Positions 54,328 to 59,373 of a stretch of 64,000 nucleotides of DNA are shown here, piece by piece. The position numbers and the translations under genes are program-made. This DNA comes from Holophagaceae bacterium. GTDB taxonomy: Bacteria; Acidobacteriota; Holophagae; Holophagales; Holophagaceae. Position 1 is the first letter of the stretch, and the number at the start of each line of letters is the position of its first letter. The notes below the pieces were generated by a model. It was not told the origin of the DNA. It ran no database searches and worked only from the letters and a program-made list of their open reading frames with translations. The stretch spans positions 62,001 to 126,000 of the forward strand of contig JALRCU010000009.1 in the NCBI GenBank assembly GCA_023257195.1, given 5' to 3'.

Positions 54328-56355
54328 TCAGACTCCTTGGCGTTTTTTTATAATTGGTTTCAAATAAAACATCCATATTGTTCCGATAACAATCATGGCA
54401 AATCCTAGGTAAGTTACCCATAGGCCTGGCTCGTAAACAACCATAATCCCGCTCACGGTAGGATCTTCAGGGTTATAGTTACTTTGGTAAAACCATAATC
54501 CTTTATAGACCAAGGGGTCGTTAACCGAAATTTCTTTTTGAGCTAAAGTCTTTCCTGACGGATCAATAAGAGTAATTTTTGATCGAAAGTCTCTTGCCTC
54601 TTGATCTTTTAAACGGTAGATGAAGCCTATTTTTTTATCGAAGAAAGTTGTTGGCTTTGCTTCTCGTCCATCGAGCCATGCCGTTTCTGTCTTCCCGGTA
54701 CGAGGGTCAGACAGGGAAATTTGTACAGCGGGATTACGCTCTGAAATAGGTCGAACTTGGGTGTTTGGGATGTACTTCCCATCGACTCTCGCATTCAAGA
54801 GAAGAGCCAAAGGTGTAGCAGAAAACCCATTCTTAAAAATAAAAGGGCGATCAAACAGTAGGGGACTTTCTTTGAGAATTTGTGCATTTTCTATCAAACG
54901 AATCTTCATATCTTTCTTCGAAAAGACGACAAATTGCGAAAAGGCTTCTTCGCCAGATGTTTGATATTGAAGACTGAGTCCTGGAGGCAGATTTGCGGCA
55001 TTTAAACTCTTAGAAAATTCAGGATTGCGAGAACTCAGGAGGATTTTAGCCTGCTGACCATCATTTGTAATTAATTCTAGTTCCGCCCAATTTCCCCTGA
55101 GCTCTGGAGGAACTGTTTCAATTTTTACAGGCTTACCATTAGGATCATTTTTAAAAGGAAAATCGTTGAAGAGACGAATCATTTTTAGTTTAAAAACGGG
55201 GAAATCCCATATGCTACCTTTTTTGAATTCTTTATCAAAGGTTTTACCTGCAAATGTTAGTTGAACAAGATGGCTTTTGGGCTCACTTTTCTTGAAGCGA
55301 CTGAGATCATTAACTTTAAATTCCTCACTAAAGACCAGCGCAAACCTTCCTTGGGGATCATTAAATCTTTGGGTTCTTGAATCTTGAGCGACTAGAAACC
55401 CCAAAAGTGGATTTGAGGTACCGGTTCCTAGCATGACTTGCAAAACCGGGTTTTCTGGCGCAGTAATATCGTTTATCCAAGTACTTCGATTAAGTGCATC
55501 CGGAAGTGCTTGGAGTATCTCTAGGCGCTTCCATGTCAGCGGGAGTCTTGCCTTGAGCCCCGCTTCAGCATCATAGGATTTTGGGTTATCTTCAAACCCA
55601 CCCCTACCATCAGGTTGGGTGAAAGCGTATAGGCGATACTCAGGATCATGCTTGACCACCTCGAATTGATCAAGGCGAATAAAGAACGGGAGAGAGAATG
55701 GGTTTTTCCAATCGCCAGGATCGGGCCCTTTGACTTTCCAAAAAATCGAGACTGGTTGATTTTGCTTCAGTTCGTTGAAGGCTCTGACGAAGCCGTATTT
55801 ACCTAGGAGTCCACCCAATAAAATAACTGATGTAGCCAAGTGGACCAGAAGGAAACCCCCTCTTGGGAGGGTGTAGGGTCGTCGCTTCCAGGCAACGGCT
55901 AGGGTACTAGCAGATAAGAGGGCTAAGAGTGAGAGAAACCATAGGGATCGATAGAGATCGTAGGCAAAAGCATACTTAACCAACAAAAGGGCTAGGTCGC
56001 CCCACCAAACTGAGCCATAGAGGTCTAAGTATTCAGAAAACTTCAATTCCTGAAGAATAAGTGTACCTAGAGCAGTTGCTGCGGCTATGAATACCAATTG
56101 AGAGATGGCAAAAGGAATACTAGTGAGTAGTTTATAGGTCCAAGTAGAGGCAAATCCGATGACCAGCCCGGTAATGATAATCAAAACGGCTAAAAAGCCG
56201 GAAATCTGTTGAACATCATTCCATTGCAGACTGTTAAATAAATGCTGAATTAAAATCCATAGGCATACCCAAATAATCAGGGCAAGATTTTGTTGAAGAA
56301 TATTGTCACGAAAGAGTCTTTGATCGGCTTTAGGTGCTACTTTATCTAAGATCAA
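54328..56355 (-). CDS. resB: cytochrome c biogenesis protein ResB (Ccs1)
   Basis: This 675-residue membrane protein has four N-terminal membrane segments, a last one at VTYLGFAMIVIGTIWMFYLKP, and a large periplasmic domain between them. The domain includes LLGGLLGKYGF, RGGFLLVHLATSVIL and the closing VNDPLVYKGLWFYQSNY, a ResB hallmark. It partners the adjacent ccsA product. It is the long form with an extended periplasmic part. Confidence 0.88.
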   Translation of the reverse strand: MILDKVAPKADQRLFRDNILQQNLALIIWVCLWILIQHLFNSLQWNDVQQISGFLAVLIIITGLVIGFASTWTYKLLTSIPFAISQLVFIAAATALGTLILQELKFSEYLDLYGSVWWGDLALLLVKYAFAYDLYRSLWFLSLLALLSASTLAVAWKRRPYTLPRGGFLLVHLATSVILLGGLLGKYGFVRAFNELKQNQPVSIFWKVKGPDPGDWKNPFSLPFFIRLDQFEVVKHDPEYRLYAFTQPDGRGGFEDNPKSYDAEAGLKARLPLTWKRLEILQALPDALNRSTWINDITAPENPVLQVMLGTGTSNPLLGFLVAQDSRTQRFNDPQGRFALVFSEEFKVNDLSRFKKSEPKSHLVQLTFAGKTFDKEFKKGSIWDFPVFKLKMIRLFNDFPFKNDPNGKPVKIETVPPELRGNWAELELITNDGQQAKILLSSRNPEFSKSLNAANLPPGLSLQYQTSGEEAFSQFVVFSKKDMKIRLIENAQILKESPLLFDRPFIFKNGFSATPLALLLNARVDGKYIPNTQVRPISERNPAVQISLSDPRTGKTETAWLDGREAKPTTFFDKKIGFIYRLKDQEARDFRSKITLIDPSGKTLAQKEISVNDPLVYKGLWFYQSNYNPEDPTVSGIMVVYEPGLWVTYLGFAMIVIGTIWMFYLKPIIKKRQGV

Positions 56356-56373: not shown

Positions 56374-58095
56374 TTAAATAAGAGCCAAGAGACCAAGTAA
56401 GGCGAAGCTAAATTCGGGACGAACATCAATCCGGGGTTTACCGGCTGAAAAACGATGATGATAAAACCACCAATAAAACATGGGATAGCAAAGGGATAGG
56501 ACCAAAATAATGTCCAAAAAGATCCAATTTTTCACCGACAAAAAGGGGTTGACTGTTAGAGCAAGGATTATTGTGCTTAGTAGCATTACGCCGATCAACC
56601 ATAGAGATTTTATTTTACCTAGGGCGATAGGTAGTGTTTCTTTTCCTAATACTTGGTCTTTCTGCATATCCCTTAAGTCGTAAATGAACGTTCGAGAAAG
56701 AGCTAAGGTAAAAATGATCATAAAAACAACACCATGTTGTATGCCAAGGGTGGATTGGTACTGAATACTAGGCGCGGTGACCATGAGGATTGCAATAGAG
56801 AGAGGAACAAAAAAATCCTTACTGCCTGGTATCGATCGCAAGCTAAAGGTTCTCTTGTTGGATCCAGATATACCAATTCGATAGAAGAGACTGGCGCTGA
56901 ATACAATCAGGTAACAAATAAAGTAGGAAAACCCGACTTCCCTCGCAGACACTATAGAGATAAGAGCTGCGATCATACTGGTATTCAATATCAATCGACG
57001 ATGGGCTTCCAGAAATTTAGCTTGGGCGGGACCTTTTACTCCTAGACCTAGGGGTTCGAGGTACGGAGCAGATAGGTACATTGAGATTATAAAAAAACCT
57101 GACGAAATAGCGATAAATAGAGAATCGGGATAATCCAAAAATTTGGAGACCCCAAAAGCCGAAAAGAAAACAGACGTACCCCAAACTAAAGGGTTAGTAA
57201 AAGCACGAGTTAATGTTTTAGTCCATCTTGAAAAATTATCAGAAGTCTCTTCGAGATAATCTACTACTTCATCGACAAGCCAAGTGGGAGTCGATGCGCC
57301 TGCAAGGACACCAACGGTTTCAGAACCCGTAAATTTTGACATGTCAATTTCCTGCGCTGTTTCGACATACTGAACAGGTTTTCCATAACGTTGGGCTAAC
57401 TCTGCAAGATGTTTTGTATTACTTGATTCTTTACCACCCACAACAATAACGTAATCAACTCTTTTGCTTAACGATTCAGCCTCGTCTTGTCTCATCCAGG
57501 TATCTTCACAGATCGTGTTCTCTACAATACAATCAGTGGCTCTATCTTCTATATAAGAAGAAATTGTATGAAAATCTTTAACCGTATAGGTGGTTTGAGC
57601 AACAATCAAACATCTAGAAAGTTCTTTTGCTGTCAACTGCTTTGCTTCCTCCATCGTAGAAATGATGATCGACCCATTTTCAGCAAAACTTCTGTGGGCA
57701 ATGGACTCCGGATGGCCTTTAGAACCTAGGATGATAGTGAAGTAGCCTTTAGGGCTCCATTTCTTAATTTTATTGTGGACTTTTGCAACTTCAGGGCAAG
57801 TGGCATTGACAATATCGAGTTCCCCTTGACTTTGCCTTTCTTTAAGTCCGCGCAAAGCTTGAATCGGGATTCCATGAGCTCGGATTACAACCGTGCCAGA
57901 TTGAACCTGCTCTGGTCCTGTAACCACCGAGACACCTCTATTCTCGATGAGCGCTAAGGCTTGAGGGTTATGGATCAGAGGCCCGAGTGTTTGAACCCTA
58001 GGATTATTGCTTCGGGTAGATGCTTCAAGCACAGCATCCATTGCCCGCTTAACACCCCAACAAAAACCTGCAGTCTTAGCAACAATTACTTTCAT
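56374..58095 (-). CDS. ispH: IspH-UbiA fusion: HMBPP reductase with C-terminal prenyltransferase-like membrane domain
   Basis: Residues 1-285 are a complete IspH: iron-sulphur cysteines Cys12, Cys100 and Cys196, substrate histidines His42, His74 and His128, and the acid Glu130. It reduces HMBPP to IPP and DMAPP. From about residue 297 an eight- or nine-segment UbiA-type membrane domain follows without a break. It keeps the second aspartate motif (Asp473, Asp476, Asp480 in YDLRDMQKDQ). Where the first NDxxD motif should lie there is only LEPLGLGVKGPAQAKF. The domain may be a divergent prenyltransferase. It is 18 bp upstream of resB, so its product may be tied to haem or quinone chemistry; that is inference. 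Confidence 0.9.
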   Translation of the reverse strand: MKVIVAKTAGFCWGVKRAMDAVLEASTRSNNPRVQTLGPLIHNPQALALIENRGVSVVTGPEQVQSGTVVIRAHGIPIQALRGLKERQSQGELDIVNATCPEVAKVHNKIKKWSPKGYFTIILGSKGHPESIAHRSFAENGSIIISTMEEAKQLTAKELSRCLIVAQTTYTVKDFHTISSYIEDRATDCIVENTICEDTWMRQDEAESLSKRVDYVIVVGGKESSNTKHLAELAQRYGKPVQYVETAQEIDMSKFTGSETVGVLAGASTPTWLVDEVVDYLEETSDNFSRWTKTLTRAFTNPLVWGTSVFFSAFGVSKFLDYPDSLFIAISSGFFIISMYLSAPYLEPLGLGVKGPAQAKFLEAHRRLILNTSMIAALISIVSAREVGFSYFICYLIVFSASLFYRIGISGSNKRTFSLRSIPGSKDFFVPLSIAILMVTAPSIQYQSTLGIQHGVVFMIIFTLALSRTFIYDLRDMQKDQVLGKETLPIALGKIKSLWLIGVMLLSTIILALTVNPFLSVKNWIFLDIILVLSLCYPMFYWWFYHHRFSAGKPRIDVRPEFSFALLGLLALI

Positions 58096-58166: not shown

Positions 58167-58934
58167 CTAGTTTACAGAAACAAACCAAAAATGAACGCCT
58201 AAGGTGTCTGCAGAATATCCTTGGGGTAAGGGAGGGAATGATCCTGATCTCATAATTGCAAGTCGTGCACTTTCGTCGAAAAAACGATTGCCGCTTGGAC
58301 TTTCAACTTGTAGTCGATCGAAATCGATACTGCCATCTTTTTTTATTCGAAAGTAGATGGCAACCCGACCTTGGCTCCCTGACTTTGACCAATTGGCTGT
58401 AATTTTATTCTGGACCTGTTGTAAGTAGTAGGTGTAGGGGAATTCGCTATCAGTAGCGGAAAGAACTCCTTGTCCCCCACTGATTCCAGAAGAAGCTCGA
58501 AGGCCTGGCATGGGAGTTCCGTTTCCGATTCCCCCACTATTTCCTCTACCCACTGCACCCTGCATCTTGACTTGAGATGGATCGAGTGACTTTGGCGCAT
58601 TAGGAGCTACTCCTAGAGATTGATTATCCAAATTAGTTCCTTTGGCGATCAGGCCTTTTGATTTAGCTCCAAGACGATCTGGTGGCGTTGCAGCGATAGA
58701 TTTTTCATCGTTACGGGCTGCGACCTGCTGCTTTGAACGGACGCGTTGAGGATTTTTTCCTAACTCATTGGCCTCCGCTCCACCACTCAGACCGCTCGAT
58801 GCCAAACTAATCCAAGTCACCTTCGTCGGGACCTGCTTATCAGGGGGGTTGTTGGAGGGAATAATCAAAGCTCCCAGAACTAGGCCGTGAAGGGCAAGGC
58901 TTTGAATGAGTGGTGGTCGCATGGTGCCATTCAT
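58167..58934 (-). CDS. TonB family energy-transducing protein
   Basis: The protein has one N-terminal membrane segment (QSLALHGLVLGALII), a long Gly/Ser/Asn-rich periplasmic linker and a C-terminal TonB-like domain (VQNKITANWSKSG, RVAIYFRIKKDGSIDF, FFDESARLAIMRSGSFPPLP). It should couple inner-membrane proton energy to outer-membrane receptors or the Tol system. A longer frame begins at 58991 inside exbD; I chose the ATG at 58934, ten bases after the exbD stop, giving 255 residues. The linker lacks the usual Pro-Glu/Pro-Lys repeats. Confidence 0.85.
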   Translation of the reverse strand: MNGTMRPPLIQSLALHGLVLGALIIPSNNPPDKQVPTKVTWISLASSGLSGGAEANELGKNPQRVRSKQQVAARNDEKSIAATPPDRLGAKSKGLIAKGTNLDNQSLGVAPNAPKSLDPSQVKMQGAVGRGNSGGIGNGTPMPGLRASSGISGGQGVLSATDSEFPYTYYLQQVQNKITANWSKSGSQGRVAIYFRIKKDGSIDFDRLQVESPSGNRFFDESARLAIMRSGSFPPLPQGYSADTLGVHFWFVSVN

Positions 58935-58944
58935 TGAATTGAAC

Positions 58945-59373
58945 TCATTTGGGAGGAGATTTAACTTCGAGAGGCGCTCCTTCGGTGACAAAACCTACTT
59001 GAGAGAAACCTGCTCCACGAACAGCATCAACCACTTCAATGACCCGTCCATAAAAGAGTTGCTTATCGGCACGAATAAGGATTGGTCGGTTCGATGAAAT
59101 CTGTGATTGTCTGATGAGTTCCTTTTTGAGGCTCTCGAGTGACATTCGTGTGTTTTCGAATTCGATAAACCCATCAGAAGTGATCGCAATAGATAAGGCT
59201 TGACTGTCTAGACTCTTTCCCGTTTGAGTTCGAGGAAGATTTACATCTAATCCACTCGTTAATAGGGGCGCAGTGACCATGAAGATAATAAGTAAAACAA
59301 GCATGACGTCAATGAGGGGCGTCATATTAATTTCGGCCATTTCTTTTTGTCGGTTATACGGACTAAAGGTCAC
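58945..59373 (-). CDS. exbD: biopolymer transport protein ExbD/TolR
   Basis: The 142-residue protein has the ExbD hallmark MAEINMTPLIDVMLVLLIIFM, where the membrane aspartate carries protons, followed by DVNLPRTQTG and a periplasmic domain ending RGAGFSQVGFVTE. It works with an ExbB/TolQ pentamer, but no exbB or tolQ gene is present upstream or anywhere in the window. The TonB-like gene follows at once, so these two are co-expressed. Confidence 0.92.
   Translation of the reverse strand: MTFSPYNRQKEMAEINMTPLIDVMLVLLIIFMVTAPLLTSGLDVNLPRTQTGKSLDSQALSIAITSDGFIEFENTRMSLESLKKELIRQSQISSNRPILIRADKQLFYGRVIEVVDAVRGAGFSQVGFVTEGAPLEVKSPPK

Follow-up and report, generated by a model that had tools for sequence, protein, structure and literature searches.

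The ispH-ubiA fusion gene lies on the minus strand of a 64,000-nucleotide stretch of a Holophagaceae genome (GCA_023257195.1, contig JALRCU010000009.1), referred to here as the window. In the order of transcription, exbD and a gene for a TonB C-terminal protein precede it, and resB, ccsA, a DUF5777 gene, an SDR gene, and polA follow. The gene, its two domains, and its downstream neighbors resB and ccsA are located as follows.

56374..58095, minus strand: ispH-ubiA fusion gene, 573 aa with an ATG start; a single ORF with no internal stops, aligned with its homologs (101 sequences in all)
57244..58095, minus strand: IspH (LytB) domain, residues 1-284; Pfam LYTB, 277 bits; solved IspH structures matched
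56377..57210, minus strand: predicted UbiA-fold membrane domain, residues 296-573; Pfam UbiA, 30.6 bits, below cut-off; AlphaFold2 model with AfUbiA (4tq3) as the best PDB match
54328..56355, minus strand: resB (cytochrome c biogenesis), 18 bp downstream of the fusion; Pfam ResB, 95 bits
53403..54323, minus strand: ccsA/ccsB (cytochrome c biogenesis); Pfam Cytochrom_C_asm, 111 bits; TIGR03144, 133 bits, below its cut-off

A preliminary description of this DNA reported a complete IspH with three cluster cysteines that reads straight into a UbiA-type domain. Both statements hold: one uninterrupted reading frame spans the two domains, and C12, C100, and C196 are present. The LYTB profile (PF02401) covers residues 3-282, far above its curated cut-off of 24.5 bits. 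Among 12 IspH catalytic residues checked, 11 are invariant in 101/101 fusions (C12, H42, H74, C100, H128, E130, T169, C196, S224, N226, and S268), and S225 varies between S, A, and N. IspH catalyzes the final step in the production of isoprenoid precursors. The source genome (1.2 Mb in 56 contigs, 97% complete) encodes no other IspH, and no Rfam match was found near the fusion gene. By its size and family, the genome appears to fit the genus UBA12189 'Acidiparvus', a streamlined freshwater lineage encoding cbb3-type oxidases and proteorhodopsin (PMC11561045).

The C-terminal half is less readily recognized from sequence. The UbiA profile (PF01040) matches residues 370-548 of the window protein and does not reach its curated cut-off of 34.2 bits, because the first third of the domain is unmatched; the same domain in relatives scores 48-54 bits. 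Searching the PDB by sequence with the UbiA domain alone (query with an added N-terminal Met) returned one chance match only, and a profile of the domain matched chlorophyll synthase, but over the second half only. Structure prediction, which the preliminary description had proposed as a check, supports a UbiA fold. AlphaFold2 modeled the whole fusion with a pLDDT of 84.5 and the UbiA domain alone with a pLDDT of 88.7 and a pTM of 0.89, in both cases as ligand- and metal-free structures. Foldseek matched the fusion model to both IspH and UbiA structures, and the domain model to AfUbiA 4tq3 as its best PDB match (TM 0.63, E 3.8e-4, probability 1.00). In the model, residues 343-347 close membrane helix 2 and residues 473-480 close helix 6, where motifs 1 and 2 of UbiAs are expected. 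The last helix of the modeled domain is short.

The two motif positions and two further residues of the domain are located as follows.

57043..57069, minus strand: residues 343-351 (A343-P-Y-L-E347-P-L-G-L351), apparent remnant of motif 1, from the alignment of 101 fusions and per-clade counts, with the register set against the standalone NKWTDTDED
56881..56883, minus strand: Tyr405, putative counterpart of the near-universal UbiA Tyr (AfUbiA Y139); invariant in 96 sequences of four clades
56818..56820, minus strand: Lys426, in the family signature IP[GA]SKD; invariant in 96 sequences of four clades
56656..56679, minus strand: motif 2, residues 473-480 (D473-L-R-D476-M-Q-K-D480), from the alignment and per-clade counts

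The first aspartate motif had been described as missing. No NDxxDxxxD is present, but the site can still be recognized. In the alignment of 101 fusions, the motif-1 Asn aligns to A343, its Asp to E347, and its third Asp to L351, so that motif 1 is probably better described as eroded than as simply missing, and as eroded to a degree graded by lineage. A comparable Asp-rich loop at some other place in the domain, named beforehand as evidence that would overturn the loss, was not found in the alignments; the aligned position reads APYLE (343-347) in the window and, in the majority of relatives, [ST]PFLD. When standalone UbiAs were aligned profile to profile, only the motif-2 half was covered, and the motif-1 register therefore rests on the multiple alignment, on the location where the second predicted helix ends, and on an HMM alignment of L192. 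This 274-aa ORF (minus strand, genome G355) is the standalone UbiA closest to the fused domain among those examined. It has both motifs intact, and its N and D fall over residues 343 and 347.

Residues were tallied in 96 fusions from four clades: Holophagaceae (64 sequences), a second family of the class (f2; 8), a group of Nitrospinota type (15), and the group of genome G328 (9). The motif-1 Asn is kept in 3/64, 8/8, 12/15, and 9/9 of these, respectively, and the 61 Holophagaceae fusions that have lost it usually carry S, T, or A instead. Asp stands at position 347 in 57/64, 4/8, 7/15, and 9/9. Glu at that position occurs only in the three tallied sequences of the window's genus, and Glu can still bind Mg2+. 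The third Asp is found in none of the 96. Ten of eleven standalone UbiAs, taken from the source genome, Nitrospinota-type genomes, and genomes of the G328 group, keep NxxxDxxxD. Such loss of the motif-1 half-site across whole bacterial lineages appears to be the new element here, as no description of motif-1 erosion in IspH-UbiA fusions was found in the open-licence literature.

The other half of the site is retained. Motif 2 is complete as DxxDxxxD in the window protein, at the residues originally reported (D473, D476, D480). D480 is invariant and D476 is changed in one of the 96 tallied fusions; D473 is mostly E or N in other Holophagaceae. In AfUbiA, N68 and D72 coordinate Mg2+ whereas D76 does not do so directly, the substitutions N68A and D72A abolish binding of geranyl-PP (GPP), and binding is weaker in D198A and D202A; the four equivalent residues are all required for function in EcMenA (PMC4106721). 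We take D476 and D480 as counterparts of D198 and D202, and Y405 as that of Y139, whose role is described in the same study (PMC4106721). This numbering was transferred through family motifs and not by superposition, so that either R420 or K426 may correspond to K146. The conservation of D476, D480, Y405, and K426 exceeds what a mere anchor needs, and the same pattern is expected of a working enzyme.

The preliminary description had also proposed surveying other genomes for the fusion, and it recurs widely. Matches reaching into the UbiA part were found in 27 of 32 genomes of other Holophagaceae genera, a count that enters G014 by its full-length match (G014:C105) and includes two partial matches, in G032 (residues 1-445 plus a short separate match at 534-572) and G029 (159-573). 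Both other genomes of the window's genus carry one as well. The Holophagaceae genomes without any match (G004, G021, G024, G026, and G033) are fragmented and 64-89% complete. The closest named matches come from Acidobacteria MAGs (76% and 71%), followed by further MAGs of Acidobacteria and Holophagaceae and by isolates of Geothrix, almost all of them at 52-59%. Beyond the family, the fusion occurs in f2, in single genomes of three further Acidobacteriota families (G058, G072, and G304), and in two other phylum-level groups: 18 of the 21 genomes in the phylum of G330, Nitrospinota or Nitrospirae by record titles (some matches partial), and 9 of 57 in that of G328. Most other Acidobacteriota match over the IspH part only. 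An assembly artefact is ruled out by the presence of the fusion in many independent genomes, including those of the Geothrix isolates. Second, shorter IspH-UbiA copies are present in G010 (L093, 517 aa) and G300 (L113, 525 aa); their IspH residues are intact, motif 2 has decayed further, and both form long branches in the UbiA tree.

In that tree, the fused UbiA domains, all from groups outside Desulfobacterota, cluster together apart from eleven standalone UbiAs (support 99/98), with finer placement unsure owing to long branches. As the tree is unrooted, we infer the direction of the motif-1 change, namely loss, rather than read it from the topology. Divergence is uneven along the protein. 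UbiA-domain identity is 33% between the window's genus and other Holophagaceae and 48% among the others, and the corresponding IspH values are 71% and 74.5%. Between the window and its nearest relative, dN/dS (Nei-Gojobori style, own script) is 0.188 for the UbiA part and 0.042 for IspH, rough values given a dS of 1.3-1.5 that places synonymous sites near saturation. Geothrix-type pairs give 0.08-0.16 for the UbiA part versus 0.04-0.09 for IspH. These comparisons point to a UbiA-domain constraint in the window's genus that is relaxed and not lost, with purifying selection weaker but real.

The source genome encodes two UbiA proteins besides the fusion. The stronger, L084 (304 aa), is of UbiA/MqnP type; it matches TIGR01475 at 292 bits, above cut-off, and MqnP models at 245-256 bits, under their cut-offs, and its motif 1 is intact (NRLVDQEID). 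The second, L085 (289 aa), is a weaker UbiA match with NSSFDNDEGD at the motif-1 place. Its gene overlaps by one base an upstream gene for a 255-aa protein (L085:656-2292).

The position next to resB and ccsA was initially read as a hint of quinone or haem metabolism. The linkage does recur: in 7 of 11 Holophagaceae genera, resB is the gene immediately after the fusion (g1 3/3, g10 2/2, g11 4/4, g7 1/1, g8 1/2, g6 1/5, and g4 3/21), but it is seen at only three of the 21 loci of g4, the genus-level group that includes the Geothrix isolates and in which an SDR gene usually follows the fusion. No gene family is common to the 6-kb surroundings across other phyla beyond small sub-clades. The window's resB gave no BLASTP match in those surroundings, a search that a distant ResB would escape. 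Since the resB/ccsA neighborhood recurs only within Holophagaceae, it hints only weakly at a function in haem or quinone metabolism. Other neighbors, such as ParAB, an O-methyltransferase, and a cytochrome bd-type gene, are each confined to single lineages. In two Nitrospinota-type genomes, an O-methyltransferase gene (Methyltransf_2 plus dimerisation domain) stands directly downstream of the fusion (L077:7774-8790, L078:7749-8756). Elsewhere in the same phylum, a different sub-clade has parA and parB after the fusion (L188:7881-9665). Directly upstream, ExbD and the TonB C-terminal protein are found in the window's genus (window 58167-59373), where inspection of the adjacent genes turned up no ExbB.

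With motif 1 lost, ordinary prenyl transfer becomes less likely in the window's lineage, and a changed role for the domain, one of the two options first put forward, is favored. The reading that we tentatively prefer, at somewhat under an even chance, is that the UbiA part anchors the protein in the membrane, offers a non-canonical half-site to a phosphorylated isoprenoid or another ligand, and no longer performs ordinary prenyl transfer. The cell's only predicted HMBPP reductase would be held at the cytoplasmic membrane face by its C-terminal domain. That domain would descend from a UbiA-superfamily prenyltransferase that lost its motif-1 metal site stepwise, from NxxxDxxxD in standalone proteins through NxxxD in many fusions and [ST]xxxD in most Holophagaceae to AxxxE in the window. 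What remains as a putative ligand site would be the aspartates of motif 2, the core tyrosine, and a lysine. Tethering may place IPP/DMAPP production beside the membrane consumers of these products, without the domain itself being an ordinary transferase.

A rather unlikely alternative, but one with a published basis, is that the domain has kept its prenyltransferase activity and coordinates metal in an unusual way: one Mg2+ would bind at motif 2 with help from Glu347 or Asp347, and IspH would supply the domain locally with IPP/DMAPP. Conservation of motif 2, Tyr405, and Lys426 and purifying selection on the UbiA part suit this "Rosetta stone" interpretation. Such a role is favored by Rao et al., who reported two DXXXD motifs in Desulfobacterales fusions (PMC4746011), and the O-methyltransferase downstream in two Nitrospinota-type genomes might fit a prenylated-aromatic pathway. 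Against it, AfUbiA cannot bind prenyl-PP, and MenA is inactive, without the counterparts of residues 343 and 347 (PMC4106721). The motif-1 Asn is gone in nearly all Holophagaceae, and no neighboring gene is common across phyla. Moreover, the donors of UbiAs are mostly longer prenyl diphosphates from separate synthases, so the products of IspH are usually not a direct UbiA substrate.

An improbable second alternative draws on animal UBIAD1 and treats the domain as a feedback sensor that would bind a downstream isoprenoid, either a prenyl diphosphate or a quinone, and tune IspH. There is an animal precedent for a membrane UbiA protein physically coupled to an isoprenoid-precursor enzyme (PMC9579336), and a ligand site partly conserved while the metal site is partly lost would agree with sensing. 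The argument is by analogy only, however: UBIAD1 does catalyze prenyl transfer itself, and what has been lost here is the set of residues that AfUbiA needs to bind prenyl-PP (PMC4106721). A decaying relic, kept only through fusion to an essential enzyme and on its way out in a streamlined lineage, would accord with faster change in the window's genus, the short C-terminal helix of the model, graded motif loss, and the still more degraded second copies in G010 and G300, but is also improbable given dN/dS far under 1, persistence of the full-length domain in a 1.2-Mb genome, where dispensable sequence usually goes, and conservation of the motif-2 residues, Tyr405, and Lys426 across phyla.

In a bold and speculative idea that we consider improbable, the fused UbiA domain would be a pseudo-prenyltransferase that now regulates IspH in response to isoprenoids or serves it as a scaffold for product channelling. 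Such a protein would be a counterpart of the UBIAD1-HMG-CoA reductase pair in kind and not by descent. The series of motif-1 states, intact in standalone proteins, partial in many fusions, and lost in the window's genus, offers natural variants with which to ask whether the domain acts as enzyme, anchor, or sensor. Geothrix isolates provide cultured hosts for the IspH-UbiA question, which has stood since 2015.

The fusion itself is already known. Rao et al. described IspH-UbiA "Rosetta stone" fusions in 2015 from 47 sequences, primarily of Desulfobacterales, with a UbiA part assigned to PT_UbiA_5, two DXXXD motifs, and hosts said to be all sulfate-reducing anaerobes (PMC4746011). Delivery of IPP/DMAPP by the fusion to a membrane prenyl enzyme is likewise a hypothesis of that study, in which expression of an active full-length protein was unsuccessful and the function was left unknown (PMC4746011). 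Among open-licence papers, only this one (PMC4746011) and one that cites it were found to treat 'IspH-UbiA', and no biochemical test of any IspH-UbiA protein was found. The window protein resembles those fusions in its N-terminal IspH, its C-terminal UbiA-like membrane domain, and the presence of a separate UbiA-type prenyltransferase in the genome. It differs in keeping motif 2 only, with motif 1 lost, whereas two DXXXD motifs are reported for the published fusions. The hosts reported here are Holophagaceae, other Acidobacteriota families, and two other phylum-level groups rather than mainly Desulfobacterales, suggesting that the fusion also exists outside sulfate-reducing anaerobes.

Compared with prenyltransferases of the UbiA superfamily (AfUbiA 4tq3, ApUbiA 4od5, MenA, and DGGGP synthase), the window's domain shares the predicted fold, motif 2, and the conserved Tyr, but has APYLE..L in place of NDxxDxxxD and a Pfam score below the curated cut-off. 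IspH-RPS1 fusions (Rao et al. 2015) are likewise a recurrent fusion of IspH, although the partner there is ribosomal protein S1 and not a membrane domain. In animals, human UBIAD1 senses GGPP and controls HMG-CoA reductase (PMC9579336). This pair also couples a UbiA-fold membrane protein to a key isoprenoid-precursor enzyme, a likeness by analogy only, since the two proteins are not fused, the enzyme and pathway are different, and UBIAD1 works as a prenyltransferase.
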